Shown: one piece after another, positions 1 through 64,000 of the stretch
How the letters are laid out: each line of letters begins with the position of its first letter
Numbering within the stretch: the stretch's first letter is position 1
Assembly: GCA_013298595.1 (NCBI GenBank)
Contig: JAAFIG010000013.1
Location: forward strand, 56,886 to 120,885
Direction of reading: 5' to 3'
Length of the DNA stretch: 64,000 nt
Source: Deinococcales bacterium
GTDB taxonomy: Bacteria; Deinococcota; Deinococci; Deinococcales; JAAFIG01
Notes under the pieces: model-generated
Told to the model about the DNA's origin: nothing
Database searches by the model: none
Seen by the model: only the letters and a program-made list of their open reading frames with translations
Program-made: the position numbers and the translations under genes

Positions 1-552
1 ACGCCCCTCGAGTAACGACAATATATCAGCTTGGTTGTTTTCGCGGGCAAGGTCTAAAGCGGTTTTGCCTTTCATATTTTTCCATTGTAAATCTGGTTTG
101 GTTTGCTCGAGTAAGAATTGCACAATTGCGTAATCTGCAAAATCTACAGCAATATTAAATGCCATTGAAGCGCCTTCCGTTGCCCCTAAAGTAACCAAGT
201 GGCGTATGAGTTCTTCATGACCAGAAATGACAGCATGAACCAATAAAGAAATGCCATGAGCACCTCTGGTACGAATAGCATTGCTATCAGCAGCAATAAA
301 ATCTTTGACCGAGGCTAAATCGCCAAGCATCGCGGCTGTGGTAATCTCGAGTTTTGCACCATGCTCGAGTAAATACAAAGCAATGGCGCTCTGACCAACG
401 TGCGAAGCGGCTTGTAATGCTGTTTCAAAATCCCCTTCACGCCATTCAAAAGCAGCATCTAGTAAATCTGGGTTTGCCGATAACATGGTTTTGACCTGCT
501 CGAGATTGCCATGACCTGCGCTAACAAAGGCTTTAATTGTTTCTTGATTCAT
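1..552 (-). CDS. Ankyrin-repeat protein, C-terminus beyond the window
   Basis: The reading frame is open for 184 codons from ATG at 552 to the window edge, so the C-terminus is missing. The translation shows degenerate ankyrin-type helical repeats: 'GHGNLEQVKTML', 'ALQAASHVGQSAIALYLLEHG', 'ISGHEELIRHLVTLGA' and 'KGKTALDLARENNQADILSLL'. There is no signal peptide, so it is probably a cytoplasmic protein-binding scaffold. Its start overlaps the end of the upstream VOC gene by 20 nt, making it the last visible gene of the prfA operon and probably translationally coupled. Its partner cannot be told from sequence. Confidence 0.85.
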   Translation of the reverse strand, partial: MNQETIKAFVSAGHGNLEQVKTMLSANPDLLDAAFEWREGDFETALQAASHVGQSAIALYLLEHGAKLEITTAAMLGDLASVKDFIAADSNAIRTRGAHGISLLVHAVISGHEELIRHLVTLGATEGASMAFNIAVDFADYAIVQFLLEQTKPDLQWKNMKGKTALDLARENNQADILSLLEGR

Positions 553-961
553 GTTTAACCTCGCGTTGACCTAGATCTTCGGCGAATCTGAGTAAATAAC
601 CATCTGGGTCTTGTACCAGAAACTGGCGATTGCCTAATTCTACATGATCTTTTCGATACCAGCGTTCCTCGAGGGGCATCATCAAATGGATCTGACGTTG
701 CGCTAATTGCTCGAGGATTGGTTGCAGACTTGAAACAGTGATTTGAAAATTGACACCTCGTCCTAATGGATGTTCAAATACGGCTGTTTGCCAAGTTCTG
801 CCAACACCAATCTGATCTATCATCAGTTGCGTATCTTCAAGCACTAGAAAAGCAAAACCTTCTTCGGGGCGCTGATATAAGACAGTAAAACCAAGTACTT
901 TGGTATAAAACTCGAGGCTAATTTGAAAATCTTGCACACTGAGTTCTGGAATTAAACTCAT
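533..961 (-). CDS. VOC-superfamily (glyoxalase/bleomycin-resistance-like) protein
   Basis: A 142-residue single-domain protein. The opening 'PELSVQDFQISLEFYTKVLGF' and the closing 'FLVQDPDGYLLRF' are the hallmark strands of the vicinal-oxygen-chelate fold, similar to bleomycin/antibiotic-binding members. These act as dimers in the cytoplasm, either as metalloenzymes or as drug binders, and the substrate cannot be deduced. The start codon overlaps the stop of the Nudix gene as ATGA, so the two are translationally coupled within the prfA-Nudix-VOC-ankyrin operon. Confidence 0.85.
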   Translation of the reverse strand: MSLIPELSVQDFQISLEFYTKVLGFTVLYQRPEEGFAFLVLEDTQLMIDQIGVGRTWQTAVFEHPLGRGVNFQITVSSLQPILEQLAQRQIHLMMPLEERWYRKDHVELGNRQFLVQDPDGYLLRFAEDLGQREVKHESRNN

Positions 962-1440
962 AACCCCGGGACTCGAGTTCCGCCGCGTCCATCCCAGCCA
1001 TTAAAACCATAGAAACGTCCTGCTAAACCTGTGTTTAAGTAATCCAGCAATGGGTCGCGCATGGGTACAGGTCCGAGTTTTTCAACAGCTTCTTTAGGAT
1101 CAAAAAACCGTGCTTCGACAATAAAACCATCAGGGTCTCGAGGGTTGAGTAAACCATCCCATTCGACATCGAAAGCAAAGACAATGGTGCGTTCGTTTTT
1201 CATCTCATCTTCGATATGCACGCTGTACGCCAAGCAGTTGACATGTTTAACTTTTAACCCTGTCTCCTCGAGTACTTCGCGTTTCACAGCTTGTAAAGCA
1301 GTTTCACCATGTTCAACCATACCACCTGGTACGGTGTAGCGCACCCGTCCTAAACCCTGCCAATCGTTGGCAACCAACAGCACCCGACCCATTTTGTCAC
1401 GTAAGACTGCGGCAGCAACCAAAAGTTCACGCCGAGCCAT
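958..1440 (-). CDS. Nudix hydrolase
   Basis: A 160-residue Nudix protein expected to hydrolyse a nucleoside diphosphate linked to another moiety. The Nudix box lies at about residues 40-62, with G40, E46, R54, E55, E58, E59 and G61 following the GX5EX7REUXEEXGU pattern, so it should be an active Mg-dependent enzyme. Nothing beyond the box identifies the substrate; housecleaning of a damaged nucleotide is a reasonable guess. Its ATG overlaps the TAA of prfA by one base (TAATG) and its TGA overlaps the VOC start, so it is embedded in a coupled operon. Confidence 0.9.
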   Translation of the reverse strand: MARRELLVAAAVLRDKMGRVLLVANDWQGLGRVRYTVPGGMVEHGETALQAVKREVLEETGLKVKHVNCLAYSVHIEDEMKNERTIVFAFDVEWDGLLNPRDPDGFIVEARFFDPKEAVEKLGPVPMRDPLLDYLNTGLAGRFYGFNGWDGRGGTRVPGL

Positions 1441-2540
1441 TACGCAACCACTTTCTGCATTTGCTTTTCTAAGCGTTCAGCAATCAAAGTTTCTTTTTCA
1501 AGGGCACGCAAAGCAGTGGATAATTCATTTAACCCACCTTGCATCACAGACTCGAGAGGATAATTTTTGTTCTCACCCTCGAGCCGATGATCGGTGACAC
1601 GATTTTGTGGATAATTATAAGTACGGATTTTTTCGCTACGCTCACCACTACCAATTAAACTCGAGCGTGCTTCGGAGCGTTCACGCATGGTGCGTTCACG
1701 TTCACGTTCAAATAATCTCGAGCGCAAAACAGTCATGGCTTTTTCACGGTTTTTCATTTGGCTGCGCCCATCTTGGCAAGTGACCACAATTTCATCAGCT
1801 GTGCCTTCGCGGTAAACCACGCGTACAGCGCTATCGGTGGTGTTCACACCTTGTCCACCATGCCCACCAGCGCGGAAAACATCCACCCGAATCTCAGCAG
1901 GATTAATTTGTACATCCACATCTTCAGCTTCTGGCAATACTGCTACGGTGGTGGTACTGGTATGAATCCGCCCAGCTGATTCTGTTGCAGGAATCCGTTG
2001 CACACGATGCACACCTGATTCAAACTTAAACACAGCAAATGCCCCAGTGCCACGAACTTCGGCGGTTAATTTGGCAAAACCACCAATATCAGATTCGTTT
2101 GTATCAATCACCTCGAGCTTAAAGCCCAAGCCTTCACAATAGCGTTGATACATCTGCAACATATCGGCTGCAAATAACCCAGCTTCTGCGCCACCTGTAC
2201 CAGCCCGAATCTCGAGAATCACATCTCTAGCATCAGCCACATCTTTAGGCAATGTTAAATCCTCAAATTCTGCCTCGAGCAAAGGAATTTTTTCCTCGCA
2301 TTCAAGTACATCTAAAGCTGCTAATTCGCCCAGATCGGCATCGGAAAGCAAACCCAGAGCTTCGCTTAAACGTTGACGCGTTTCCAATAATTCACGACTA
2401 ATTCGCGCTAATTCGCGCATTTCGCCATACTTACGCTGCACACGGGCGTATGCCGCGCCATCCGCCATCAAAGCAGGATCGGCAAGACTCGCCTCGAGTT
2501 GTGCAAACTCGGCAAGAATGATTTCAAGTGACTCGTTCAT
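1440..2540 (-). CDS. prfA: Peptide chain release factor 1
   Basis: A full-length 366-residue class I release factor that reads UAA and UAG on the ribosome. The catalytic GGQ lies at about residues 228-230 inside 'GGHGGQGVNTTDSAVR', and the codon-recognition tripeptide is PAT (about 184-186), the PxT type that marks RF1, not the SPF of RF2. It heads a four-gene minus-strand operon. A TAGACT box ends 8 nt before the ATG, so the mRNA may have almost no leader. The GGQ glutamine is normally methylated by PrmC, which is not in this window. Confidence 0.97.
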   Translation of the reverse strand: MNESLEIILAEFAQLEASLADPALMADGAAYARVQRKYGEMRELARISRELLETRQRLSEALGLLSDADLGELAALDVLECEEKIPLLEAEFEDLTLPKDVADARDVILEIRAGTGGAEAGLFAADMLQMYQRYCEGLGFKLEVIDTNESDIGGFAKLTAEVRGTGAFAVFKFESGVHRVQRIPATESAGRIHTSTTTVAVLPEAEDVDVQINPAEIRVDVFRAGGHGGQGVNTTDSAVRVVYREGTADEIVVTCQDGRSQMKNREKAMTVLRSRLFERERERTMRERSEARSSLIGSGERSEKIRTYNYPQNRVTDHRLEGENKNYPLESVMQGGLNELSTALRALEKETLIAERLEKQMQKVVA

Positions 2541-2693
2541 AACTCGAGAGTCTACCGTTTCTGGAGGGGTTTGTGCTAAGGACGGAGGTCGGGACGAAAG
2601 AAAAAGGATTAATAGAGGGATAAGTTCACAAACGAGTAGCTAGAAGCTAACCGCCAAATCTTGCTAGACTGGTCTGACTTATAAGGGGGCATC

Positions 2694-4847
2694 ATGTTTG
2701 AACTATCTTTACTCGAGAAGATTGCTTTTATTTTAGTGGCTGGTTTTTTTGGTTCTTGGGCATTATTGTATTTTGCTCGGATTTACCAAGCCATTGCTCG
2801 AGGCAGTGCAGATTCTGAAGATCGGTTCGATAACTTACCAAACCGAATTGGTGCGGCATTATGGGCAACACTTTTACAAACTCGAGTTTTCCGAGATCGT
2901 TTCTGGGTCAGTGTTTTACATGCGGGGATTTTCTTTGGGTTTACTTATTATTTATTGGTTAATGTTGTAGATGGACTCGAGGGTTTCTTTGGTTTTCATG
3001 TGCAAAGTAATACTTGGTATACTGCTTTGTATTTGCTCAGTGCAGATTTATTAACAGGAGCGATCTTACTGGGTGTCATAAGCTTGTGGATACGCCGATT
3101 TTTTACCTCGAGTGGCGAAAAAACCTTTTCTTTTAATCCGCGAACATTGTTACATGAAGCTATTCAAAACGGCAAAATTCGTTCAGATAGTGGCATTGTT
3201 TCAGGATTTATTACCTTCCACGTCGGTATGCGTTTTCTTGGGCAGGGTTTAAAGTTGCTCGAGTCTGGAACAAACCCAGATTTATTTCAACCATTTGCTT
3301 CGTTATTGGCTGGGGCATTAACAACGCTGGGTTTATCTGAACAAGCTTTAATTTCAGGTTTGCATTTTACATATTGGGGAGCACTTGGCAGTATTTTGGT
3401 TTTTCTGCCTTACTTTGCCCGTAGTAAACACATTCACATTGCCACAGCACCAATCAATTATGCACTCGAGCGTCGTCGTGATGGACAGGTACTCTCGAGC
3501 GGAGTCATTCCACTGATGGATCTGAGTAGTCTCGAGCAGGACGAACCTAAAGTTGGTGCTTTACGGCTCGAGGATTTATCATTTCCTAGGTTACTCGATG
3601 CCTATGCTTGTATTCAATGCAATCGCTGCCAAGATGTTTGCCCTGCCAATGCCACTGGCAAGGCGTTATCGCCAGCTGCACTCGAGATTAATAAACGCAT
3701 GGAATTAAATTCCTTAATTGGCAGCCCATTCGAGTTACGCCCAAGTTTCTTGGCTGGCGAGGCATCTCCCAGACCACTACTCGAGTTTGCCATTAACGAA
3801 GAATCGGTGTGGGGTTGTACCACTTGTGGCGCTTGTATGCAGGTCTGCCCTGTCCAAGATGAACAAATGCTCGACATTATAGATATTCGCCGTGAACGTG
3901 TAATGATGGCGGGTGAATTCCCGAAACAATTGCAAACCGCTTTTACAGGTATGGAACGCCAAGGCAACCCGTGGGGCATCAGTGCCGACAAACGTATGGA
4001 TTGGGCAGATGGTTTAACTGTTCCAACCATAGACCAAAACCCAAATCCAGATGTCTTGTATTGGGTTGGTTGTGCTGCCAGTTACGACCCCAGCGCACAA
4101 AAAGTCTCGAGAAGCTTTGTGCAACTTTTGCAAGCTGCCAATGTTAATTTTGCTGTACTAGGCAAAAAAGAAAGTTGTACAGGCGATACAGCACGGCGTA
4201 GTGGCAACGAGTACTTGTACCAAGAACTTGCAACAAAAAATATTGCTACTTTAAATAGTCTGCAACCCAAACTGATTGTGGCAACGTGTCCGCACTGCAT
4301 GAATATGATTGGTAACGAATACCCGCAACTGGGTGGCAATTATACTGTCATGCACCACACAACCTACCTCGAGCAATTGGTTTCCGATAAACTGCTTGCC
4401 ACGGGTGATTTCTCGAGTGGTAATGTCACGTATCACGACCCTTGTTATTTAGGACGACATAACGATGTCTACGATGCACCAAGGGAAAATTTACGCAGTC
4501 TTGGTTTTGATATTCTTGAACTCGAGCGTTCACGTGAAAAAAGTTTTTGTTGTGGTGCTGGTGGTAGCCAATTCTGGAAAGAAGAAGAACATGGTACCGA
4601 ACGTATCTCGGACAATCGAATGCGAGAAATTAAACAAACCGTGGCTGGAGAAGCCACCAAAACAGTGGCAGTTGGTTGCCCATTTTGTAAATCCATGTTA
4701 GCCAGTACCCCAGAAGCTCAAGATAGTGGTGTGGCTATCAAAGACATTGCTGAACTGATGCTCGAGAATCTTGAAACTGGACGCAGCAAAGGTGTGATTG
4801 TATCGCCAAAAGTACCCTCGAGTATTGGCATCAGTGGTGATGATTAG
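2694..4847 (+). CDS. Membrane-anchored Fe-S oxidoreductase, HdrD/GlpC-like (two 4Fe-4S plus two CCG domains)
   Basis: A 717-residue fusion. The N-terminal ~290 residues hold about five hydrophobic helices resembling the cytochrome-b-like gamma subunit of respiratory enzymes. Then come two ferredoxin clusters, CIQCNRCQDVCP near residue 305 and CTTCGACMQVCP near 375. The C-terminal half has two cysteine-rich CCG modules (cysteines in 'WVGCAAS', 'TCPHC', 'DPCYLGRH', 'FCCGAGG', 'GCPFC'). This architecture is known for proteins passing electrons from acyl-CoA or electron-transfer-flavoprotein oxidation to membrane quinone. SD AAGGGGG precedes the ATG. It is transcribed alone, divergently from prfA. 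The electron donor is inferred, not seen. Confidence 0.85.
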   Translation: MFELSLLEKIAFILVAGFFGSWALLYFARIYQAIARGSADSEDRFDNLPNRIGAALWATLLQTRVFRDRFWVSVLHAGIFFGFTYYLLVNVVDGLEGFFGFHVQSNTWYTALYLLSADLLTGAILLGVISLWIRRFFTSSGEKTFSFNPRTLLHEAIQNGKIRSDSGIVSGFITFHVGMRFLGQGLKLLESGTNPDLFQPFASLLAGALTTLGLSEQALISGLHFTYWGALGSILVFLPYFARSKHIHIATAPINYALERRRDGQVLSSGVIPLMDLSSLEQDEPKVGALRLEDLSFPRLLDAYACIQCNRCQDVCPANATGKALSPAALEINKRMELNSLIGSPFELRPSFLAGEASPRPLLEFAINEESVWGCTTCGACMQVCPVQDEQMLDIIDIRRERVMMAGEFPKQLQTAFTGMERQGNPWGISADKRMDWADGLTVPTIDQNPNPDVLYWVGCAASYDPSAQKVSRSFVQLLQAANVNFAVLGKKESCTGDTARRSGNEYLYQELATKNIATLNSLQPKLIVATCPHCMNMIGNEYPQLGGNYTVMHHTTYLEQLVSDKLLATGDFSSGNVTYHDPCYLGRHNDVYDAPRENLRSLGFDILELERSREKSFCCGAGGSQFWKEEEHGTERISDNRMREIKQTVAGEATKTVAVGCPFCKSMLASTPEAQDSGVAIKDIAELMLENLETGRSKGVIVSPKVPSSIGISGDD

Positions 4848-4916
4848 CAGTCTCGAGTTTGAAGTGGTTTTATTGGATTTGTACCAGAATTTACCACCAC
4901 TCGAGTCAGATGAAAT

Positions 4917-5375
4917 TTAAATCACAGGTTCGAGTGGTTGATGTTCAAACAGCGTTGATAGTGTCACTAACGTATTGGTACGAATTACACCAGGCACTTG
5001 TTTAATTCGGTAGAGTAAATTCTCGAGTTCGTGTGGGTTAAAGGCACGCACTTTTAAAATCACATCTAAGTCTCCTGCAACGCTATGACATTCTTCGATT
5101 TCGGGTAACTGAATAAAATTCGCCGCTACAGCTAAACCATTAGAGTTATTTTCTAAACGAATTTGAATAAAAGCCAAAGTGCTCAGTCCAACTGCTGGAG
5201 CATTAATACGAGCACCATAACCCGAAATAATCCCGCGTTTCTCGAGGTTTTTGACTCGAGCGTGTACTGTGGCGGCACTCAAGCTAACCTTTTGGGCGAT
5301 ATCGGCGTAGGTTTGGCGACAGTCTTGTTGTAGCTCTTTGAGGATACTGCGGTCAGCTTCATCTAACTGAATCAT
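4917..5375 (-). CDS. Lrp/AsnC-family transcriptional regulator
   Basis: A 152-residue one-component regulator. The N-terminal winged HTH ('LDEADRSILKELQQDCRQTY', then 'VSLSAATVHARVKNLEKRGII') is followed by an Lrp RAM domain (about 65-150) that binds amino acids and assembles octamers. It lies head to head with an EamA exporter and starts about 70 bp away, the arrangement of a local regulator that senses a metabolite and controls its efflux. It probably also controls its own promoter. The effector is not deducible. Confidence 0.93.
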   Translation of the reverse strand: MIQLDEADRSILKELQQDCRQTYADIAQKVSLSAATVHARVKNLEKRGIISGYGARINAPAVGLSTLAFIQIRLENNSNGLAVAANFIQLPEIEECHSVAGDLDVILKVRAFNPHELENLLYRIKQVPGVIRTNTLVTLSTLFEHQPLEPVI

Positions 5376-5408
5376 ATTCGGATTCTAGCACATAAGCAGA
5401 ACCACGTA

Positions 5409-5438
5409 TTGACGAAACAGGATTTCTTCACATATTGT
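5409..5438 (+). promoter_or_regulatory. Sigma-70-type promoter of the EamA gene, leaderless
   Basis: TTGACG at 5409-5414 and TATTGT at 5433-5438 are separated by 18 bp. The -10 ends 5 nt before the ATG at 5444, so transcription should begin at or next to the start codon, with no Shine-Dalgarno sequence. It lies in the spacer shared with the lrp-type gene, where that regulator would bind. Confidence 0.75.
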
Positions 5439-5443
5439 TAGCT

Positions 5444-18819: not shown

Positions 18820-19728
18820 TTATGGTGACTCGAGAAAATCTGATTTTTGTGCACTGAGTACAATAATGCGAAAACCTTTGCCCACCAAAACAACACATTC
18901 TGCCTGTAATTCGGGAACATAAGCAGTAGAAATCGTAAAAGCTTCTCTGCCACCTACACCATTAATAAAAGCAAGTGTCGCTGTGGCATTTGGTAGAATA
19001 ATCAGATTTTCGCTTGGATTGACTGGCATGGGTGCTGCCGAGGTTTTACCATTGTACCAATCCGTTAAAATAATTTCTTGCATAGTCAATTTAAGGTTAG
19101 CTTCAGCGGCTCTGATGGCAATATGAAAAACAAATTGTCCATGGGTTCTTTTTGAAATAGCAATAACTGCGTCTTGTCCTGTTAAAGCAGGATGTTCTGC
19201 TGCCACAATGAAACCTTGCTCGAGATAAATTTTTGCACTGTCTAATTCCAAACAACCAGTAGATTTGATTGTGGCAAGTAATTGTAGCACTGCGCTTACA
19301 CCACCAATTTCATCTAAGCGACCCTGATGAATACTGAGTGGTTTTTTATTTTGCAGTGCCATATCTGTTTGTACATAACCAAGAAATGTAGCAACAAATA
19401 AGATGCTTTCAAGTTTGGTATTACTTTTTTTCCCTTGGGCTAAAATACCAAGTTTTGTGTTTTCAATGACTAGAACTTCGTAAAATACCCGATCTGCTTG
19501 TAATTCTTCGAGCATCGAATTGGTTTGTTCGGCGAATAATTGCCAAATCGAATGACCAACCATAAAGCCCAAGTTTTTATTTTGTGCTTTTAGCCCGAGG
19601 TCTTCTGCCCAAAGTACCATGCCATTTTGATCGGTTTGCACAACCGCGATTGGCAATGTGTGAATCGCATTGCGGACACGGGTTTCGATTTGGAACGCAT
19701 GGCGGAACTCTCTGCTAGAAGAACTCAT
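18820..19728 (-). CDS. PAS-like plus DUF4388 domain protein
   Basis: A 302-residue cytoplasmic protein. The N-terminal part ('AIHTLPIAVVQTDQNGMVLW', then 'GHSIWQLFAE') looks like a PAS sensor. The middle ('GGVSAVLQLLATIKSTGCLE', then 'IYLEQGFIVAAEHPALTGQDAVIAI') is a DUF4388 domain, a module found in Deinococcus and myxobacterial signalling proteins. No catalytic or DNA-binding domain is evident, so it is probably a signalling adaptor. SD GAGG precedes the ATG. CTCGAG is sparse in this gene. The 180-bp upstream spacer holds the inverted repeats GGTAGT/ACTACC and GATAGC/GCTATC. Confidence 0.8.
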   Translation of the reverse strand: MSSSSREFRHAFQIETRVRNAIHTLPIAVVQTDQNGMVLWAEDLGLKAQNKNLGFMVGHSIWQLFAEQTNSMLEELQADRVFYEVLVIENTKLGILAQGKKSNTKLESILFVATFLGYVQTDMALQNKKPLSIHQGRLDEIGGVSAVLQLLATIKSTGCLELDSAKIYLEQGFIVAAEHPALTGQDAVIAISKRTHGQFVFHIAIRAAEANLKLTMQEIILTDWYNGKTSAAPMPVNPSENLIILPNATATLAFINGVGGREAFTISTAYVPELQAECVVLVGKGFRIIVLSAQKSDFLESP

Positions 19729-24933: not shown

Positions 24934-24975
24934 AATAAACTCGAGCCAAGCTTGGCTCGAGTTTATTTATTTTTG
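24934..24975 (+). terminator. Terminator between the lipoprotein gene and murJ
   Basis: A perfect 34-bp palindrome at 24934-24967 containing two CTCGAG sites around CCAAGCTTGG, followed by TATTTTTG on the plus strand. The convergent murJ stop codon lies inside the stem. Confidence 0.9.
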
Positions 24976-26519
24976 TTCAAGCGCTTAACTAAGCTCGAGA
25001 CTTCAGGGACTTGCAAAACCACACACATCAAAACATATGCAACAATGCCAACTCCACCAGCAACAACACAATGCAAAATGCCATTGATTGCACCTCTGGT
25101 GTAAGGCAGTAAACTCGAGATAAATTGTGCTACAAAAAACGTAATGACCGCAGCAATGCCAACTTTGATGGTGTGCCCAACCAATTTTTTATAATTTAAA
25201 CCAATTTGTAGGTGCAGCGCACCAACATAAACCCCAACCATCAACCAACCTGTGATGGCAGTGGCAAAATTCATAATCACAATGCCACGAGGTGCAAGCA
25301 AAATATACAATAAGGTATTTAAAGCAAAAGCAATGGTGCTAATAATTACTGCATCTCGAGAACGTTCTCGAGCGTAAAAAGCTCGAGTTAATAATTGCAC
25401 TAAACCCCACGGGGCAATGGCTAAGGCAAACGAAGGCAGCAATGCCAATGTGGGATTAAATTTATCATCCGAGATAATGCCTGGTAATTCAAAAATTGCA
25501 CTGGTGATATTGCTGGCTAATGCCCAAACCAATGCCGAAACACCAGCTGATAAAAACAAAACCAAGCGAGCATAGCGCGTTACGGTATCGCGGAAAGCTT
25601 CCCAATTTTTCTGAGCTGCAAATTCGGCAAAACGTGGATATGCTGCTGTGGCTGGAGAAACTGCAAATAAACCTTGTAAGGTTAAGAAAATAAATTCGGC
25701 ATTGCGAAAACCTGTAATTGACCCAGCCCCAAACCCAGCCAGTAACCCAGTTAAAATGACACTCAGAAACTGCCGTGTACTGGTGGTAAAGGCAAAAGGA
25801 GCCATCAGCAGTAAAGCTCTGGTTAAACCAGGATGCCATTGCAATCTGGGCATGGTCAACAAGCCAAATTGCCGTAAACTGGGTAACTGCACCAATAATT
25901 GAGCTAAACCACCAAAACTGGTAAATAAACCCAACCACAAGGCTTGATTTTGAAAAAGTACCAATCCTAAAATCGTTACAACATTAAAAGCCAGCGGTGC
26001 AAAAGCTGTTGCACCAAAACGCTCTTCGGCATTAAGTAAACCCATAGCTAAAGCACTAAACGAAATTCCCATTAAAAACGGCATAATCAAACGGGTTAAA
26101 AAAATGGTTAACTCTGTATCTAAACTCGAGCCTCTGGTGGCAACATTCAGTGCATTGGATGCCTGCATCAATGCCACCAATTGCGGTGCAAACAAAATCC
26201 CTAAACCAACAATGATTGCGTTGACTGCAATTAGTAAAGCAATAAAACTCGAGACAAAAGCTTTGCGTTCACTTGGCTCGAGTTTTTTATAAACAGGAAT
26301 AATGCTGTTAGATAAAGCTCCTTCGGCGAGTAATTCGCGGAATAAATTTGGAATGTTATAGGCAACATTAAAAGCATCGGTTAAACGGGTATCTAAGCGA
26401 TTAAAAAGGGTTTGCCGTAGTAAACCCAGCACTCGACTCGAGAGCGTGCCGCTCATGACAGTCAGGATGTTGCGAGTTGCGCTTTTACGAATTGGAGCGG
26501 TTACAGTTTCGGTTTCCAT
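24963..26519 (-). CDS. murJ: Lipid II flippase MurJ
   Basis: A 518-residue polytopic membrane protein with about 14 helices, full length for MurJ/MviN. The opening 'MSGTLSSRVLGLLRQTLFNR' and 'AYNIPNLFRELLAEGALSNS' are the most conserved MurJ segments, including the Arg residues of the central cavity. It moves lipid II across the inner membrane for peptidoglycan synthesis. It is transcribed alone on the minus strand. Confidence 0.95.
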   Translation of the reverse strand: METETVTAPIRKSATRNILTVMSGTLSSRVLGLLRQTLFNRLDTRLTDAFNVAYNIPNLFRELLAEGALSNSIIPVYKKLEPSERKAFVSSFIALLIAVNAIIVGLGILFAPQLVALMQASNALNVATRGSSLDTELTIFLTRLIMPFLMGISFSALAMGLLNAEERFGATAFAPLAFNVVTILGLVLFQNQALWLGLFTSFGGLAQLLVQLPSLRQFGLLTMPRLQWHPGLTRALLLMAPFAFTTSTRQFLSVILTGLLAGFGAGSITGFRNAEFIFLTLQGLFAVSPATAAYPRFAEFAAQKNWEAFRDTVTRYARLVLFLSAGVSALVWALASNITSAIFELPGIISDDKFNPTLALLPSFALAIAPWGLVQLLTRAFYARERSRDAVIISTIAFALNTLLYILLAPRGIVIMNFATAITGWLMVGVYVGALHLQIGLNYKKLVGHTIKVGIAAVITFFVAQFISSLLPYTRGAINGILHCVVAGGVGIVAYVLMCVVLQVPEVSSLVKRLNKNK

Positions 26520-26567
26520 ACAAACTGCGTGTAGGGTATCACTTTGTATGAACCTAAAGTGAATGCC

Positions 26568-28064
26568 TTAAATTTGCTCGAGGTTCTGCAAAATATGCTT
26601 GGCTTGCTCGAGGATGGCTGCTTGGGTGGTTTGATCTCGTTTTTGCCAATTGGCAAGAATAATGCTCATTCGGGGATTCTTTGCCAGACTGAGCAAGTGT
26701 TGGTTAATAAAGTTCCAGTACAAACTGTTAAAAGGGCAGGCATTTGCGCCAATGGTTTCTTTGGGATTGTACTGGCAGTGCTGGCAATGGTTGCTCATGC
26801 GGTTGATATAGGCTGCACCGCTGATATACGGTTTAGAAGTGAAAGTGCCACCATCGGCGTATTGACTCATACCAATGACATTAGGTGTCACAACCCAATC
26901 AAAAGCATCGACAAAACCCAGTAAAAACCAATCATTAACCGCTTGCGGTCGGATACCTGCTAACAAAGCAAAGTTGCCAAGGATCATTAAACGCTGAATA
27001 TGGTGAGCATGACCAGTATTCCAGACTTGTGTTACAGCACTCGAGACACAGTGCATCTTGGTTTTGCTCGTCCAATAAAAATGAGGTAAGTCTCGAGTCA
27101 AGCTATACCCATTGGCTTCTCGGAAATCTGGCATCAGTGTACTGTAAATGTGGTGCATAAATTCGCGCCAACCAAGGATTTGTCGAATAAATCCCTCAAG
27201 ACTACTCAGTGGCACTTGATCAATGTACTTTAGCGCAGTTTCACAAACTTCTTTAGCGGTTAAAAGACCAAGGTTGATAGCAGGGGAGAGTAAACTATGG
27301 TAGAGCTGTGCTTGACCAACAACAATGGCATCTTCGTAAGCGCCAAAATCGTGCAACCGAAACTCGAGAAAATGATCCAGTACTTGCAAGGCTTGTTGAC
27401 GAGTAACAGCCCAGTTAAACTGCTCGAGTGTACCAAAATGATTGGCGAAGTGCTGTTCAATAAAGGCTTTTGTCTCGAGTGTGATTGCATCTGGTTTTAA
27501 TTCAAGTGGTTTTGGGAAAATATGATTTTTAGGTGGAACTAAGCGATTTTCACTATCAAAATTCCATTTGCCACCCAAGGGTTCCGAGCCATCCATGAGC
27601 CAATTGGTTTTGCGTCGCAACTGACGATAAAAAAATTCCATACGATACGATTTTTTATCCGCAGCATATGTTTGCCAATCGGCGTGGGTGGATAACCATA
27701 AACAGTTTTCTATGATCTCGAGCTGCCCATCAAGACCAGAAACGATGGTCTGTAGTTTTTCGGCAACCCCATATTCGGCAGGCTGCATGACCGTAATGGT
27801 TGCTTTCGGAAATTGCTGCAAATACGCAGCAAAGCCTTCTTCAAAAGTTTGACCTTGCCAATAAAAAACCTGAAAACCTTTTAACTCGAGTTCAACCTTA
27901 AAATGCCGCATGGCACTATAAAGCAACAGCAATTTTTGCTTATGGTACTGCATCACTTGACCTCGAGCAATGCTTTCAATCATCAGTATTTGAGTTTGCT
28001 TGGGTGGATATAAATCAAAACGCTCGAGATTTAATTGATCGCCTAGTACAAGCACATGCTGCAT
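26568..28064 (-). CDS. FeS-type cryptochrome/photolyase (PhrB-like)
   Basis: A 498-residue DNA photolyase-related protein. 'VLVLGDQLNLERFDLYPPKQ' opens the antenna domain. The C-terminal FAD domain has 'FIRQILGWREFMHHIYSTL' and 'AHHIQRLMILGNFALLAGIR'. The cysteines expected to hold a 4Fe-4S cluster are in 'MHCVSS' and 'HCQHCQYNPKETIGANACPF'. The family repairs (6-4) photoproducts with light or acts as a photoreceptor. TAGGCT ends 6 nt before the ATG, so it is probably leaderless. Confidence 0.92.
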   Translation of the reverse strand: MQHVLVLGDQLNLERFDLYPPKQTQILMIESIARGQVMQYHKQKLLLLYSAMRHFKVELELKGFQVFYWQGQTFEEGFAAYLQQFPKATITVMQPAEYGVAEKLQTIVSGLDGQLEIIENCLWLSTHADWQTYAADKKSYRMEFFYRQLRRKTNWLMDGSEPLGGKWNFDSENRLVPPKNHIFPKPLELKPDAITLETKAFIEQHFANHFGTLEQFNWAVTRQQALQVLDHFLEFRLHDFGAYEDAIVVGQAQLYHSLLSPAINLGLLTAKEVCETALKYIDQVPLSSLEGFIRQILGWREFMHHIYSTLMPDFREANGYSLTRDLPHFYWTSKTKMHCVSSAVTQVWNTGHAHHIQRLMILGNFALLAGIRPQAVNDWFLLGFVDAFDWVVTPNVIGMSQYADGGTFTSKPYISGAAYINRMSNHCQHCQYNPKETIGANACPFNSLYWNFINQHLLSLAKNPRMSIILANWQKRDQTTQAAILEQAKHILQNLEQI

Positions 28065-35948: not shown

Positions 35949-36156
35949 CCAAATTGTGTTAATCAGTCGCGTATTTTGACTGATTAACCGACTAAGCGCG
36001 AACAGCCCGAAGGTGCTGTCTTGTGAGCAAGAAAAGGAGTAGCAACAAAACCAAATTAACGCTTGAAGCGCGAACAGCCCGTAAGGTGCTGTCTTGTGAG
36101 CAAGAACGACAGTTTGACCGCTTTTTGGTCAAACGAGAGTGATTAAGTTAATTTGG
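35949..36156. mobile_element. MITE-like non-autonomous element, 208 bp, with internal repeats and hairpins
   Basis: Imperfect terminal inverted repeats: CCAAATTGTGTTAATCA at 35949-35965 and TGATTAAGTTAATTTGG at 36140-36156 (14 of 17 matching). Inside are two ~40-bp direct repeats (35994-36033 and 36066-36106) sharing AAGCGCGAACAGCCCG and GGTGCTGTCTTGTGAGCAAG, each able to form ACAGC/GCTGT and CTTG/CAAG stems. There are two further hairpins, TTAATCAGTC/GACTGATTAA (35959-35987) and GTTTGACC/GGTCAAAC (36112-36134). It encodes no protein and contains no CTCGAG. ATA on both sides may be a short target duplication. Confidence 0.6.
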
Positions 36157-42753: not shown

Positions 42754-43872
42754 TTGATGAAAAAAGTTGTTGTCGCCTTTGGAACCCGTCCCGAAGCCAT
42801 CAAAATGGCACCTGTGATCTTTGGTTTACGCCAACAACCTGGTCTCGAGACCATTGTGCTTTCGACGGGTCAACACAAAGAACAATTACTTGATGGCTTA
42901 CGGATTTTTGGTATCACCCCAGATATTGACCTTGAAGTCATGACTGATCGGCAAACCTTACCGATTTTAATGGGTAAAATTGTGCCGTTAGCTGCCGAGA
43001 AATTACGTGAATTAAAAGCCGATTATGTGCTGGTACATGGCGATACCCTGACCAGTTTTGCTGTTTGTTTAGCTGCGTTTTTTGAACGCATTCCTGTTGG
43101 GCATGTTGAAGCGGGCTTACGCAGTTTTAACATGGCAGAACCATTCCCAGAAGAAGCCAATCGGCGTTTAACCGATGTGCTGACTGACCTTGATTTACCA
43201 CCAACTCGAGGTAATGCCGAAAATATTTTACGCGAAGCCAAAATTAACCCCAATATTGTGGTCACAGGTCAAACCGAAGTGGATGCCGTGTTATATGCCA
43301 GCACTCGAGGAACATTGCCAAAAATCCCCACAGACAAACGAATTGTTACCATGACCATGCACCGCCGCGAAAACCTGCCATTTATGACAGACATTGCCAA
43401 AGCAATTGCCAAAGTTGCTTTGGCACACCCAGAATGTCACTTTGTTTACCCTGTCCATCTCAACCCAGCAGTGCGCGAAGCTGTTTACCCAAGTTTGCAA
43501 CCCTTAGAAAATTGTAGTTTACTCGAGCCACTGGATTTTGGCAGTATGGCTGCTCTGATGAAAGCCTCGAGCCTGATTGTCACAGACAGCGGTGGCTTAC
43601 AAGAAGGTGGAGCAACCCTAGGTGTACCAGTGGTTGTGTTACGAAACGTCACAGAACGCCCAGAGGGATTAACGGTTAATGCTCTGAAACTGGCGGGTAC
43701 AGACCCAGAAACAGTTTTTGAAATCATTCATACGTTGCTCTCGAGCGACGAAGAGTTAAGCAAAATGCAAAACCGACCAAATCCGTATGGTGATGGACAT
43801 GCGGGGATCCGCTGCGCTCAAGCGGTGGCATGGCGTTTAGGCTTAGCCGAACGACCAAAAGATTGGCAGTAA
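42754..43872 (+). CDS. wecB: UDP-N-acetylglucosamine 2-epimerase (non-hydrolysing)
   Basis: A 372-residue GT-B-fold enzyme converting UDP-GlcNAc to UDP-ManNAc for cell-surface polysaccharide. It has '[20 protein letters not shown]', '[20 protein letters not shown]', '[12 protein letters not shown]' and the UDP-binding '[20 protein letters not shown]'. SD AGAGGAAAG precedes the ATG. No other envelope-sugar genes are adjacent. Confidence 0.95.
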
Positions 43873-58244: not shown

Positions 58245-59552
58245 TTACTTAATAAAGCCCTGAACGCGCATTTCGTCTTCGGTCTTTTTAGCAGCTAGAT
58301 CAAGGGCGGCTTTTAGATCGGTTTTATTAGCAAGAGCTGCTCTCAGTTCATTGCCAAGAATTGTGGTGGCAATACCTTGGAATGGTACGGCTGGACGCAG
58401 TGGCACGGCTTGACGAGCATTGCTGGCAGCAGCAACCCAAGCTCGGTTTTTAGCCACTAAAGTTGGATTAGTAGCGATGCTGTCGCGGCTGACCATACCA
58501 AGGCTGGCAGCGTTTAACTGATTGCTCTTGCCCAGCATTTCCATGACCACACGAAAAGCCAAATCAGGGTCTACTTTACTCGAGGCAGCAATTGCCAGTG
58601 CGTCGCCTTCGGCAGTATTTGCGCCTAATCCGTTACCACCAAACTTAAAAGCAGGTGCATAATCTATTTTACCAACCACTCGAGATACTTTTTCGTCTTC
58701 CATTGCTGAGGCTCGAGTTAACCAGATTTTACTCAGGGCAATATCGCCTTGTTGTAAACCAACCATAACATCATCATTGGTGTAATTTAAGACAGCAGGA
58801 GGCATAAACTCGAGCCAATCGCGGATGGCTTGGGCAGCTTTGACTCCGTTAGCGTTGTTAAAAGCGGGTTTTTTATTCTTATCAAACCACACGCCACCAA
58901 GTGCAGCATAATTGCTGTGGAACTCGCCAGCCAATGCGCCACCACCCAAGGCAATCGCCAATGGGTATTTGGTTTTACTGGCTTTTTTGAGTGCCTCGAG
59001 AACTGTCGTAAATTCTTCTAAGGTTTTGGCAGGTTTAAGGTCGAGTTCGGCAAAAACATCTTTGCGGTAGAACTGAATTTGCGTGTTGAAATTAACAGGC
59101 AGCGCATACTGACGACCATTTAAAGTGGTATTGTTGATCAGTTTGTCACTGATATCATCCAGATTATATTGTTTTTTGTATTTGGCAATAAAAACGTTTA
59201 ATGGCAATAACCAACCTTTAGAACCCCATTCTGTGACCAAACGCGGATTGACATGCAGAATCTGATATGGCGAGGTACCCGTGGCAAGTGCCGTGTTGAC
59301 TTGAGTTTCGTATTGTGCAGGTTGTAAGAAACTGGTTTTTACCGAGAGCGAGCCTTTGCTGCATGCTTCGGCAGCATTAAAGTAATATTCCATCATCGGG
59401 AAACGAAAGCCAAAGACATTGATTATGGTGGGATTGGCTGGGGCTTTAACATTACAAGCCGCCACTGTTTGCTGTGCCGAACCCATGCTTAGAGCGGCTG
59501 TGATTGCTAATGTACCAATTGTTAAACCAATACCAATGATGCGTTTTTTCAT
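58245..59552 (-). CDS. ABC transporter extracellular solute-binding protein
   Basis: A 435-residue exported protein with a signal peptide ('IIGIGLTIGTLAITAALSMG'). The body fits sugar-type cluster 1 binding proteins ('GRQYALPVNFNTQIQFYRKD', 'KYPLAIALGGGALAGEFHSN', 'FQGIATTILGNELRAALANK'). It supplies the two permeases downstream. The start is ATG 59552 behind GGAGGAA. Its promoter carries a LacI-type operator. The substrate is unknown; the cluster suggests a small polyol or hydroxy-acid. Confidence 0.92.
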   Translation of the reverse strand: MKKRIIGIGLTIGTLAITAALSMGSAQQTVAACNVKAPANPTIINVFGFRFPMMEYYFNAAEACSKGSLSVKTSFLQPAQYETQVNTALATGTSPYQILHVNPRLVTEWGSKGWLLPLNVFIAKYKKQYNLDDISDKLINNTTLNGRQYALPVNFNTQIQFYRKDVFAELDLKPAKTLEEFTTVLEALKKASKTKYPLAIALGGGALAGEFHSNYAALGGVWFDKNKKPAFNNANGVKAAQAIRDWLEFMPPAVLNYTNDDVMVGLQQGDIALSKIWLTRASAMEDEKVSRVVGKIDYAPAFKFGGNGLGANTAEGDALAIAASSKVDPDLAFRVVMEMLGKSNQLNAASLGMVSRDSIATNPTLVAKNRAWVAAASNARQAVPLRPAVPFQGIATTILGNELRAALANKTDLKAALDLAAKKTEDEMRVQGFIK

Positions 59553-59633
59553 ACATTCCTCCAACCTCTTTTGAGGGTTAAAACCTTTTCCTAAGCCTTC
59601 TGACTCGAGTTGATGTTTTGACGGTAAGCCAAC

Positions 59634-59662
59634 ATTCTAATGCAAGCGTATGCAATTTTGAA
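59634..59662 (-). promoter_or_regulatory. Promoter with LacI-type operator for the transport operon
   Basis: On the minus strand TTCAAA (59662-59657), 17 bp, TAGAAT (59639-59634). The spacer is occupied by ATTGCATACGCTTGCATTA, an imperfect palindrome around a central CG, the layout of LacI/PurR-family operators (5 of 8 positions symmetric). A LacI-type gene lies 3 kb upstream in the same cluster. Confidence 0.6.
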
Positions 59663-59680
59663 GAGGGTGCGTTTTAAATC

Positions 59681-60958
59681 CTATAAAAGCCCTTGTTTTT
59701 TAAGTCGAATATCGCACGAAAGCGCATGACCAAACATCAGTTCGGCTCGAGCCACTGCGGCTGCGTGCGGGGCAACGGTACGGCTACCTTCTTGGGTGCA
59801 ACGCTGATACGTGACAGTTTTGGTAAATTTACCCACCCATAAGCCGCCTGTGTAGCGTGCCGCACCACCTGTGGGCAGCACATGGTTTGTACCAATGGCT
59901 TTATCCGAATATGCCACAGTTGCCTCATGACCCAAAAATACCGAGCCATAATTTTGTAATCGCGCCAAAAACCAATCAGGGTCTTGGGTTTGCACCTCGA
60001 GATGCTCGGGGGCAAACTGATCAGAAACCAGCAACATTTCAGCATCTGATTCGCAAACAATAATGCTGCCACAATCACGCCAAGCCACACCAGCCACATC
60101 GCGGGTAGGATAATCCAGCAAAATTTTTAAGACCAAACTTTGCACCTCGAGTGCTAAGTCTCGAGAAGTGGTAATTAACGTAGCTGGGCTGTTTAAACCG
60201 TGTTCAGCTTGTCCAAGTAAATCTATGGCAACCACTTCTGGGTCGGCGCTCGAGTCAGCAATAATCAGAATATCGGTCGGTCCAGCCAGTAAATCAATGC
60301 CGCAAACCCCAAATAACTGGCGTTTAGCTTCGGCAACATAGGCATTACCCGCTCCAACTATCATGTCTACAGGTGCAAGTTCAAGTTCAGGTACACCAAA
60401 CGCCATGGCTGCCATGGCTTGTACGCCACCAATGCTATAAATTTCATCGGCTCCTGATGTGTGCATTGTAAAAAGTTGGGCTGCATAGATTCCTAAGCCA
60501 TCTTTGGGTGGTGCACTTGCCACGACCCGTTTAACCCCAGCAACTTTGGGTACAACTACGGTCATGGCACTCGAGGCGATAAGTGGGTAACGCCCACCAG
60601 GACTGTAACTACCAACACTCGAGACTGGGATTTGTTTTTGTCCAAGTATAATCCCTGGATGGGTTTCGACCTCGAATTCGGTTAGGGTAGCTTTTTGCAA
60701 TTGGGCGAAGCGTTTGACCTCTGCTTGTAGCCAACCTATATGTTCTTGCCAATCTGCTGGGGTGTTCTCGAGGGCTGCTTGGATTTCATCAAGTGAAACC
60801 CGAAACGAAGGTGGATTCCATTTATCAAAGGCTTGTGAGTAACGGCGTACTGCCGCCAGCCCTTCGGATTCGACAGCTAGAATAATTTCAGAAACAGTGT
60901 CCCTGATTTCCTTGGTAACGGCTTTGGGCGTGGGTGGCGGTTTTTTAATGTATTCCAT
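59681..60958 (-). CDS. Histidinol-dehydrogenase-family enzyme, HpsN-like (sulfopropanediol 3-dehydrogenase type)
   Basis: A 425-residue NAD-dependent dehydrogenase. It keeps the HisD fold and Zn-site surroundings ('GPTDILIIADSSADPEVVAI', 'LLGQAEHGLNSPATLI', 'DQFAPEHLEVQTQ'). Distinctive segments ('GGRYPLIASSAMTVVVPKVA', 'AARYTGGLWVGKFTKTVTYQ') match the HpsN branch, which oxidises 2,3-dihydroxypropane-1-sulfonate to sulfolactate, more than biosynthetic HisD. There are no histidine genes nearby, and the neighbours are an SDR, a transporter and a LacI regulator. I start at ATG 60958 (SD AAGGA). The exact substrate is inference. Confidence 0.85.
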   Translation of the reverse strand: MEYIKKPPPTPKAVTKEIRDTVSEIILAVESEGLAAVRRYSQAFDKWNPPSFRVSLDEIQAALENTPADWQEHIGWLQAEVKRFAQLQKATLTEFEVETHPGIILGQKQIPVSSVGSYSPGGRYPLIASSAMTVVVPKVAGVKRVVASAPPKDGLGIYAAQLFTMHTSGADEIYSIGGVQAMAAMAFGVPELELAPVDMIVGAGNAYVAEAKRQLFGVCGIDLLAGPTDILIIADSSADPEVVAIDLLGQAEHGLNSPATLITTSRDLALEVQSLVLKILLDYPTRDVAGVAWRDCGSIIVCESDAEMLLVSDQFAPEHLEVQTQDPDWFLARLQNYGSVFLGHEATVAYSDKAIGTNHVLPTGGAARYTGGLWVGKFTKTVTYQRCTQEGSRTVAPHAAAVARAELMFGHALSCDIRLKKQGLL

Positions 60959-60996
60959 TTTTTCCTTTTTATGACCAAAATAAGACCAAGGTATTT

Positions 60997-61728
60997 TTAA
61001 CGGGCAGTCCAACCACCATCTACCAGTAGGCTCGTACCAGTGATTAAATTGGCTTTGCTCGAGGCTAGAAAAGCCACAGCCTGAGCTACATCTTCGGGCG
61101 TACCAACATGACCAAGTGGAATGCTTTGAAGAACACTTTTTTGAAAATCAGGATTCTCTAGCATCGGACGGGTTAAATCGGTTTCAATAAAAGTTGGTGC
61201 CACACTGACCACCCGAATCTTATGTGGGGCTAGTTCAATTGCCAATGCCTTGGTCAAACCTTCAAGTGCGTGTTTACTGGAACAGTAAACACTTCGATTA
61301 ACCGCACCTACATGACCCATCTGCGAAGAAATATTGATGATCACCCCACCAGCGGCATGTTCGAGAATTTTTTGCACTGCGATTTGTGTAACAAAAAAAG
61401 CGGTTCTGACATTCAAATTAAAAATCTGGTCAAAATGGGCTTCTGAGACCTCGAGAAACGGCTCTGGGATGTTCGTGCCAACATTATTGACTAACACATC
61501 CAAACGTGGCAAGGAATGCAGTGCGGTTTGAAGTTGCTGAAAGCTGCTTGCATCGATTGGAATAACAAAAGCCATTTGGTTCAAGGCTTTTACTTCTACA
61601 GCGACAGTTTCTAATGATTCAAGGTTACGTCCAATCAAAGCCACAGCAAAACCATCTTGAGCAAGAGCTAAAGCACAAGCCTTGCCAATGCCTCGAGATG
61701 CGCCTGTGATGGCAGCAATTTTAATCAT
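60997..61728 (-). CDS. Short-chain dehydrogenase/reductase
   Basis: A 243-residue classical SDR. The NAD(P) loop is TGASRGIG (about 8-15), the structural motif is 'VLVNNVGTNIPEPFLEV', and the catalytic Ser and YxxxK lie in 'GVIINISSQMGHVGAVNRSV' and 'YCSSKHALEGLTKALAIELA'. The C-terminal 'DVAQAVAFLASSKANLITGT' is FabG-like. It is probably a hydroxyl oxidoreductase acting next to the HpsN-like enzyme in one pathway. I start at ATG 61728, 9 nt before the Rossmann strand; the SD is weak. Confidence 0.9.
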   Translation of the reverse strand: MIKIAAITGASRGIGKACALALAQDGFAVALIGRNLESLETVAVEVKALNQMAFVIPIDASSFQQLQTALHSLPRLDVLVNNVGTNIPEPFLEVSEAHFDQIFNLNVRTAFFVTQIAVQKILEHAAGGVIINISSQMGHVGAVNRSVYCSSKHALEGLTKALAIELAPHKIRVVSVAPTFIETDLTRPMLENPDFQKSVLQSIPLGHVGTPEDVAQAVAFLASSKANLITGTSLLVDGGWTAR

Positions 61729-61765
61729 GTGTTTACCCGAGTCATAAAAGAATGCCCATTTCCAC

Positions 61766-62878
61766 TCATAGTTCCCCTGCGGCTGGGGCATAAATTTGTT
61801 TTAGGAGCGCAAATTCATCAAAAACGGTGTATTCCTGCGCAACTCTGCCATTCTCGAGTTCAAAGTGGCTAATGCACATAAGTTTAATTCTTTGCCCAGT
61901 GGCATCACCGTACCAGCCAGTGCCAAGGTGGGTGCCTTGGAAAGTCCAACGCACCGCAATTTTTAGGTTTAGCCCAGTGCCAATGTAACAAATATGGTCT
62001 ACACTCACGCCAGCATCGGGGAAAGCTGCCAGTAAACTTAAAACAAAATGTTGGTAAGCACTAATTCCCTCGAGTTTTCGTGCTGTGGATACAAAAGCAG
62101 TTGGGGATTGCGTGTAATAACCGTGCACCCGATTTAGTAAACGCCAATTCCAGATTTCTTGAAACATCGAATATATAAAATCGGTTACGTCAAAACCATC
62201 ATTGGAACGAACAGGTAATTTGGGTGGAAGTTGCCCTTGGAGACGGTCTATTTCGGGTACACCAATTTGCACTGGGCTGTTTGCATTACGGATTGCATCG
62301 GCTTTTGCAAGGCGTTTAGCCAGTTCGATTTCGGGCAGACCAAGTTGCCGTACCAAAGCCAGTTCATCACGTACCAACCATTCTTCGGCAATGCGGTTTT
62401 CTTTAACAAAACAATGGGCAATGCCACGGCGCAAAATTCGTTTATTGGTCGGTGCGCCGTAAGCGCTATACCCCGTGTTGCGGGCAGTCCAAGTAATACG
62501 GTGACTCGAGTGAAACCCATCGGTTTCGTTGCCGCTCCAGATCACTTCATCGCCATGCAGCCGAGCATCTGGAAAGGCAGCAAGGGTTTTGAGTGTCCCT
62601 TCAACCACAGCTTCGCGTCCATAAATGGTTGCATCGGTCATGTAAATAGGGCAATTATGGGTGTAATGCGTGTAAATCAAACCAATTGCTTTTTCTTCCC
62701 AAATTTTATGAGTACAACGAATAATATAATCCACAAAATCGGGATAATCCTCGTCGAATCCTCGCAAGGCTTGACGACGTTCAAGAGGGCGTTCAGGACT
62801 CGAAAAACTCGAGATGTCGCGCCCGTTTACCATAATTTGGCTGCGCTCGAGCAGTTCTTGCTCAGATGGTTTGGTCAT
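61766..62878 (-). CDS. Double SnoaL-like (NTF2-fold) protein
   Basis: A 370-residue protein made of two SnoaL-like domains. The first has 'EEKAIGLIYTHYTHNCPIYM' and 'HRITWTARNTGYSAYGAPTN'. The second has 'QEIWNWRLLNRVHGYYTQSP', 'FVLSLLAAFPDAGVSVDHIC' and 'FELENGRVAQEYTVFDEFAL'. The duplicated polyketide-cyclase/ester-cyclase fold usually forms a hydrophobic catalytic or binding pocket. Its place between lacI and dehydrogenases suggests an isomerase, hydratase or lyase step. Coupled to lacI by a 4-nt overlap; SD AAGGTGA. Confidence 0.85.
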   Translation of the reverse strand: MTKPSEQELLERSQIMVNGRDISSFSSPERPLERRQALRGFDEDYPDFVDYIIRCTHKIWEEKAIGLIYTHYTHNCPIYMTDATIYGREAVVEGTLKTLAAFPDARLHGDEVIWSGNETDGFHSSHRITWTARNTGYSAYGAPTNKRILRRGIAHCFVKENRIAEEWLVRDELALVRQLGLPEIELAKRLAKADAIRNANSPVQIGVPEIDRLQGQLPPKLPVRSNDGFDVTDFIYSMFQEIWNWRLLNRVHGYYTQSPTAFVSTARKLEGISAYQHFVLSLLAAFPDAGVSVDHICYIGTGLNLKIAVRWTFQGTHLGTGWYGDATGQRIKLMCISHFELENGRVAQEYTVFDEFALLKQIYAPAAGEL

Positions 62879-63894
62879 GATTTCACCTTTTTTGCTCTGG
62901 TTTTCAGTGCTTTGACGCTGCCACGTTCGATTAAAACCCCTGGGATGAATCGTAAATTACTACCAAGTGGCGCATTTTCTATTGCCTCGAGTAAAATCTG
63001 TAAACTCGAATCGATCATGGTTTCGACAGGCTGGCGAATTGTGGTTAAATTATATGCGCCCCAAGCTGCCATTGGTATGTCATCAAAGCCAACAATGCTG
63101 ATGTCTGTACCAACTTGTACTCCCGCTTCTCGAGCTGCGTCTATCGCACCAATTGCTGTGATATCGTTGGCACAAAAAATTGCATCGGGTGCATCGGAAC
63201 GTGCCAGTAATCGCTGCATTGCAGCAAAACCAGCTTCGTAAGTAAAGTTTCCTGCCTCGTGTTGAACCATAAAACCAGCCTGCTCGAGCCGCAACGTATA
63301 ACTGCTTTCGCGGTCACGGTTGGTGCTGGTGTTCTCACGCCCTGCAATGTAAGCATAACGGCTGTGCGAACGCCCCAAGAGGTAATCGGCAATCGTTCGT
63401 CCGCCACCTCGGTTATCGCAGCATACAGCGCTTGAAGAGGCATCAGCGGCATAGCGATTAAACAAGACCACAGGCGTACCATGCCGACTGAGGGTTTCTG
63501 CCATGTGGCTGGATAACCTCGCCGAGGCAATCAGTAAGCCATCACACTGGTACTCGAGAACGAGCGGCAGTAAATCGTCTACTTCGTGTTCAGCATCGGT
63601 GCTAAAAAGGAGCACCCGCCAGCCCAGCGTATGCAGTTTAGAGGTGAGTTTCTCGAGCACAAACGGATAAAACGGACTGGTCATTTCCGACATGACAATG
63701 CCAATTAATTTGCTTTGCTGCGTGCTTAGACTCCGTGCCATCGCGTTGGGCGTGTAGCCCAATTTCAGCGCGAGATGTTGAACTTTTTCACGGGTTTTAA
63801 CAGCAATTCGCACATCATTGGATAATGCCCGCGAAACTGTACTTTGGCTAATTCCAAGCTCCTGAGCCAAATCCACACTGGTGACTCGAGCCAT
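62875..63894 (-). CDS. LacI-family transcriptional repressor
   Basis: A 339-residue repressor. The HTH and hinge are intact ('VTSVDLAQELGISQSTVSRA', 'NAMARSLSTQQSKLIGIV'), followed by a periplasmic-binding-protein-like effector domain ('GTDISIVGFDDIPMAAWGAY', 'LTTIRQPVETMIDSSLQILL'). It heads the catabolic cluster. An imperfect LacI-type operator in the promoter of the binding-protein gene is its probable target; the inducer should be the transported compound or a product of it. Confidence 0.94.
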   Translation of the reverse strand: MARVTSVDLAQELGISQSTVSRALSNDVRIAVKTREKVQHLALKLGYTPNAMARSLSTQQSKLIGIVMSEMTSPFYPFVLEKLTSKLHTLGWRVLLFSTDAEHEVDDLLPLVLEYQCDGLLIASARLSSHMAETLSRHGTPVVLFNRYAADASSSAVCCDNRGGGRTIADYLLGRSHSRYAYIAGRENTSTNRDRESSYTLRLEQAGFMVQHEAGNFTYEAGFAAMQRLLARSDAPDAIFCANDITAIGAIDAAREAGVQVGTDISIVGFDDIPMAAWGAYNLTTIRQPVETMIDSSLQILLEAIENAPLGSNLRFIPGVLIERGSVKALKTRAKKVKS

Positions 63895-64000
63895 TAATAA
63901 CTACCTGTCTTTTGACTCGAGCCACTTTTAAATGTTTCAAGCGCAGTTTTAGCGGCTGATGCCAGCAATCTGGAATCGCTACTGAGCACCAGAAATCTGT

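Follow-up and report, generated by a model that had tools for sequence, protein, structure and literature searches.

The 64,000-nucleotide stretch analyzed here, referred to as the window, belongs to contig JAAFIG010000013.1 of a Deinococcales genome (G000; 4.58 Mb in 68 contigs, 94% complete) and raises the question of what maintains the palindrome CTCGAG at several copies per kilobase (kb) throughout it. The window (45% GC) contains 412 copies, compared with 5.9 ± 2.3 in dinucleotide shuffles and the 12.5 predicted by base composition alone, and CTCGAG is the commonest of its hexamers by a factor of 3. An earlier note on this DNA had counted 40 copies in the first 4.9 kb, a count that is exact (positions 7 to 4900), and had proposed a highly iterated palindrome (HIP) of the whole genome. 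The whole-genome count bears this out: 27,159 copies are present in 4,582,226 bp (5.9 per kb) versus 15 of the reversed control GAGCTC, so enrichment extends beyond the window. Neither result that the earlier note had named as refuting its proposal, a genome count near expectation or enrichment confined to the window, was thus obtained. Copies were also said to occur in every frame, in the genes of both strands and in spacers, and the window counts agree, as frame 0 accounts for 224 copies, the remaining two frames for 94 and 72, and 4.0 kb of spacer for 22.

Occupancy of Permitted Sites and Effect on Proteins

Detailed analyses were carried out on a 1.31-Mb sample of G000 that includes the window. 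Of the 2366 Leu-Glu codon pairs in a 513-kb portion of G000, 1648 (0.70) are written as CTCGAG; the word also fills 0.66 and 0.39 of the sites that the amino acids permit in the other two frames, and spacers carry 5.9 copies per kb, equal to the genome density. A plain codon or dipeptide preference, by which Leu-Glu is encoded as CTC GAG, would explain why frame 0 holds most copies, but frames 1 and 2 and the spacers are likewise far over expectation, and codon shuffling of 1.18 Mb of G000 genes yields 703 copies versus the 6968 observed (9.9-fold). Nor would an assembly artefact recur as the same enrichment in independent metagenome-assembled genomes (MAGs), and an origin of either kind is hardly credible.

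Leu-Glu dipeptides occur in G000 at 2.37 times expectation, Glu-Leu at 0.98. The Leu-Glu ratio is 2.3-2.5 in the remaining strongly enriched genomes, 1.95 in G001, 1.25 in the Thermus-like genome G051 and 1.03 in G004. Because this excess tracks CTCGAG enrichment across genomes, the word has altered proteins. When genes were aligned with those of four sister genomes, CTCGAG filled 64-79% of the permitted sites that correspond to a copy in G000, and 50-100% (a small group) of those that do not. What is retained is thus the word and not its positions.

Bias per site was estimated as the excess of CTCGAG relative to synonymous words one base away, with neutral expectation set by codon usage. In G000, the gain-over-loss bias toward CTCGAG at every one of the six positions is 16-55 where transitions are concerned (geometric mean 26), and 37-408 for transversions (geometric mean 126); in the other genomes of families f1 and f2, described below, the geometric means are 23 and 80, respectively. 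A per-copy bias of tens to hundreds thus operates on the whole six-letter word, whatever the reading frame and also in spacer DNA; it alters amino acids and is not bound to particular positions. When the spacer between the half-sites is varied, GAGCTC alone is abolished, and GAGNCTC is present at its normal level.

Other palindromes are also unevenly represented. Six-base-pair palindromes other than CTCGAG occur at 0.34-0.54 of expectation in f1, at 0.99 in G004 and at 0.92 in Natrialbaceae. In the window and the 1.31-Mb sample, GGCC and CCGG are almost wholly avoided, and most 6-bp palindromes are strongly avoided (TTCGAA 1 vs 348, AGGCCT 0 vs 158). Each 4-bp palindromic core is rarer in G000 between palindromic flanks than between other flanks.

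Distribution across Lineages

The lineage survey covered 111 genomes of the order. In f1, an uncultured Deinococcales family that includes G000, all four genomes carry 6.0-6.5 copies of CTCGAG per kb. Densities are 6.2-7.7 per kb in f2-g5, 3.6 in f2-g4 and 0.3 in f2-g6 (G004), and about 1.4-3.4 in g10 to g12 of family f4. In the Thermus-like f4-g13, the density is about 0.85 per kb and the GAGCTC control is similar, indicating no enrichment; in the g13 sample, CTCGAG matches codon expectation (19 vs 20). The g13 genomes are taken to be Thermus because the methyltransferase that they conserve closely resembles PDB 2zie, a T. thermophilus protein, and g12, we infer, is Meiothermus. Other MAGs named "Deinococcales bacterium" have the signature as well, among the matches listed in a scan of named genomes.

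Loci from other lineages were chosen for clusters of CTCGAG, which inflates the densities measured in them; GAGCTC, the control, stands outside that choice. Among the loci listed for Natrialbaceae, which are archaea, 77% of Leu-Glu pairs are CTCGAG, out-of-frame copies are at about 6 times expectation, GAGCTC occurs 24 times against 98 expected, and Leu-Glu dipeptides are at 1.75 times expectation. Among those listed for the Myxococcota MAG Dive96, Leu-Glu is at 2.0 times expectation and GAGCTC is absent. The CTCGAG signature thus recurs in three distant lineages: Deinococcales, Natrialbaceae and a Myxococcota MAG.

Viruses and CRISPR Arrays

Viruses follow their hosts, with those of Meiothermus and Natrinema enriched and those of Thermus and Halorubrum not. 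The Meiothermus phages MMP17 and MMP7 contain 78-82 copies versus 25 expected, with 107-108 Leu-Glu against 65-66 Glu-Leu, and Natrinema virus SNJ1 contains 48 versus 19 expected, with 45 Leu-Glu against 12 Glu-Leu. Among Thermus phages, Riverbug has 23 versus 32 expected, phiFa 12 versus 22, and P23-45 3 versus 25, which amounts to avoidance; Halorubrum BJ1 has 50 versus 46. A 60-kb viral contig, of which 14.6 kb was examined, carries 5.3 copies per kb and no GAGCTC, and its baseplate and tail-fibre genes best match Meiothermus and Thermus phages. Spacers of clustered regularly interspaced short palindromic repeat (CRISPR) arrays also contain the word: 4 of about 13 spacers in G000 (near 8 per kb), and 3 copies in 1687 bp of G001 spacers. 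A single spacer searched against viral contigs gave no match.

The CRISPR arrays in G000 are located at C23:126846-127313 and C50:17561-18098 (L382 and L373), and their repeat, GTTTCAGTCCTCTATCGCTCGAGG, includes CTCGAG. An array in G001 (L360:11534-14968) comprises 49 repeats and 48 spacers. Two viral contigs, L401 and L416, are enriched in both CTCGAG and GAGCTC, unlike the signature described here. MMP17 (L499) encodes a VSR-annotated endonuclease adjoining a D12 methyltransferase at 26062-27388.

Methyltransferases

The earlier note named HIP1 (GCGATCGC) of cyanobacteria as the closest known phenomenon, rightly so: CTCGAG is a short palindrome in many-fold genome-wide excess, in coding and non-coding DNA and across a lineage, as are HIP1 and the alternate HIPs (PMC4390886). 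Those words accompany cognate methyltransferases (PMC4390886), orphan CTCGAG methyltransferases are found in Nocardia (PMC4752239), and CTCGAG is methylated in Halobacterium NMX12-1 (PMC11556058). It could be, as in Elhai's model, that an orphan CTCGAG methyltransferase marks sites for mismatch repair or replication and that the word accumulates as a result. However, in five Pfam families (PF07669, PF02384, PF01555, PF00145 and PF02086) no orthologue common to the four f1 genomes (MAGs 91-94% complete) was found, and the solitary methyltransferase that the earlier note had offered as a possible reader is unsupported. Also rejected was the A1 family of methyltransferases found in Meiothermus-like genomes, because it fails to track enrichment: 4 of 18 g12 genomes have no strong match and are equally enriched. 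Furthermore, the mismatch-repair model, as distinct from the HIP class itself, predicts saturation near one site per kb, whereas the density in G000 is 5.9 per kb and no negative kb-scale effect is seen.

XhoI and PaeR7I restriction-modification systems recognize the same word. Across the order, XhoI endonuclease homologues (PF04555) are found only in three f3-g8 genomes and in G108; they are absent from f1 and f2, where CTCGAG is therefore without a cognate XhoI endonuclease. The three XhoI-bearing g8 genomes have roughly half the CTCGAG of their XhoI-free g8 sisters, the usual avoidance and the opposite of the enrichment in f1. The methyltransferase adjoining XhoI in g8 shares 57-67% identity with an enzyme that Thermus-like genomes conserve, and 62-69% with another in g9; the f1 methyltransferases compared with it match weakly (full-length <30%). 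The Thermus-like genomes retain this homologue, for which the XhoI neighbor in other genomes suggests CTCGAG specificity, yet they are unenriched. Judged by homology, a XhoI-type methyltransferase would be neither needed nor sufficient for enrichment, and an origin by methylation is on the whole improbable. Examples of the Thermus-like homologues are located at L345:2481-3374 (G051, g13) and L352:1036-2100 (G012).

Spacing between Copies

The earlier note was right that copies are not clustered in tandem, and the result is sharper, since spacings below 30 bp are depleted. In the 1.31-Mb sample, permitted sites that have another copy starting 9-15 bp away are filled at 0.38-0.39 of the baseline rate, which recovers to 0.60 at 18-21 bp, 0.82 at 30-40 bp, 0.95 at 60-80 bp and 1.0 beyond 100 bp. 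The curve is unchanged without the overlap filter, and as a control, use of CTC and GAG codons elsewhere is flat across these distances. Hairpin avoidance was ruled out as the cause, since GC-rich inverted 6-mers at large show no avoidance, and no helical phasing of CTCGAG spacing is apparent at 10.5 bp. In the other f1 and f2 genomes, the exclusion is present but weaker (0.60 at 9-18 bp). Copies within about 20 bp of one another are thus partly exclusive, and the effect has faded by about 90 bp. Such short-range exclusion is what a protein footprint would give.

At longer range, Leu-Glu sites that lack any neighboring copy inside 100 bp rise in occupancy from 0.27 to 0.83 as copies 100-1000 bp away increase, which reflects islands that are incompletely filled. 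The rise excludes kb-scale saturation of the type associated with uptake sequences and mismatch-repair marks. This bears on the possibility that competent cells favor CTCGAG-bearing DNA and that recombination spreads the word, the uptake-like signal raised in the earlier note. The genome-wide spread and the partial filling of islands fit such a signal, and the Thermus relatives are competent. A single copy per fragment should suffice for uptake, however, and neither the kb-scale rise, nor a 6-bp palindrome at 6 per kb, nor its presence in phages is expected, leaving this possibility unsupported and very improbable. The uptake sequences of Pasteurellaceae and Neisseriaceae also reach thousands of copies of one word per genome, but they are longer, non-palindromic and near one per kb, and their kb-scale saturation is absent for CTCGAG. 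As for a Chi-like recombination site, CTCGAG is palindromic and hence has no strand orientation, and the signature is also found in haloarchaea, which to our knowledge lack RecBCD.

A Putative Host Factor and Biased Repair

The favored reading, at somewhat less than even chances, is that CTCGAG is recognized by a host-encoded DNA-binding factor whose reach extends to all DNA resident in the cell, including the chromosome, islands and phages. Weak selection in favor of bound sites would retain copies, and the footprint of the bound factor could cause the short-range exclusion. The copies might then be where a word-addressed nucleoid protein binds, or make up a self-marking code. A fuller version, proposed about as tentatively, is that the reader is something other than a methyltransferase, and that by driving or retaining CTCGAG in the chromosomal and viral DNA of bacteria and archaea it maintains a word-addressed nucleoid or self-marking code that rewrites the proteome.

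Several observations weigh against a host factor. No DNA-binding factor that reads CTCGAG has been identified. In Natrialbaceae no exclusion is apparent (0.89 ± 0.16), and pairs within 15 bp, though disfavored, are still far over neutral expectation. The near depletion of GAGCTC, common to Deinococcales, Natrialbaceae, the Myxococcota loci and several viruses, is not accounted for by such a factor. The phage phiCh1, whose host Natrialba belongs to Natrialbaceae, has 98 copies versus 57 expected, a mere 1.7-fold excess. Finally, transition variants meet a bias about 5-fold lower than transversion variants do, a difference that simple, reversible selection on an all-or-none site does not predict; this gap between mutation classes leaves room for a drive based on repair.

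The main alternative is such a drive, in which word-specific biased repair or gene conversion resolves mismatches in a CTCGAG context toward CTCGAG, perhaps aided by many genome copies per cell, so that the word spreads without function. It would account for an all-or-none word biased at six positions and blind to frame and protein cost, for effects on phages, for the difference between transitions and transversions, and for partly filled islands. Polyploidy is a known trait of cyanobacteria, the Thermus group and haloarchaea, groups in which such words occur or are suspected. Against it, no VSR-like or other word-specific repair gene was found in f1, where no search aimed at such genes was made, and the short-range exclusion is not predicted unless a bound neighbor blocks the repair protein itself. 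Biased repair is considered unlikely, though a serious contender; the present evidence does not separate it from selection for binding.

Comparison with Known Systems

HIP1 8-mers occur in cyanobacteria at 0.3-2.7 per kb (Elhai 2015, PMC4390886), in a study in which CTCGAG goes unmentioned. CTCGAG differs in the word itself, in the phyla concerned and in its density; most of its permitted sites are filled, dipeptide usage is shifted, exclusion is at the scale of a footprint, no family-wide cognate methyltransferase was found, and viruses, once tested, follow their hosts. A shared trait is that the HIP1 core is reported to lie within CRISPR repeats in Synechocystis (PMC6604393), as CTCGAG does in G000. 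The orphan methyltransferase of Nocardia recognizes the same word (Blow et al. 2016, PMC4752239), but there CTCGAG clusters at the origin beside dnaA, whereas in f1 saturation is even and no shared methyltransferase was found. No work was found in the literature that pairs CTCGAG with a highly iterated palindrome, and none for Meiothermus.

HIP words are an open puzzle to which methylation is a leading clue. CTCGAG adds a denser, protein-changing word, present in three distant lineages and in viruses of such hosts, for which no shared methyltransferase was found. Meiothermus (cultured, with a weaker form) and Natrinema both have sequenced viruses, and allow selection, biased repair and methylation to be separated experimentally. 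Analyses of codon usage, dipeptides and horizontal gene transfer in these lineages must allow for the word.

Features of the Window

Example genes, dense and sparse in CTCGAG, are given in Table 1. In G000, low occupancy is also seen in the genes for UvrD-like helicases, for an AlgX-like protein and for an E2/ThiF/JAB protein.

Table 1. Coordinates of CTCGAG copies and selected genes in the window
Feature	Position	Strand	Remarks
CTCGAG copies	1..64000	.	412 total, 17-34 per 4 kb all along; GAGCTC = 0
Fe-S / heterodisulfide-reductase-like domain protein, coding sequence	2694..4847	+	Example, CTCGAG-dense
DUF4388 protein gene	18820..19728	-	Low occupancy: CTCGAG at 20% of 10 permitted sites
murJ, coding sequence	24963..26519	-	Conserved gene with CTCGAG, e.g. 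at 24994, 25114, 25355
UDP-GlcNAc 2-epimerase, coding sequence	42754..43872	+	Kept in sister genomes; part of site-turnover comparison
Short-chain dehydrogenase gene	60997..61791	-	Low occupancy: 25% of 12 permitted sites

Elsewhere in G000, a 3,960-codon open frame (L187:4400-16279, contig C19) has low occupancy (0.18) and was probably acquired recently. A repeat of about 40 bp, GCGCGAACAGCCCGAAGGTGCTGTCTTGTGAGCAAGAA, which does not contain CTCGAG, is present in two copies at 35990-36115 of the window and is dispersed in G005, G006 and G007.

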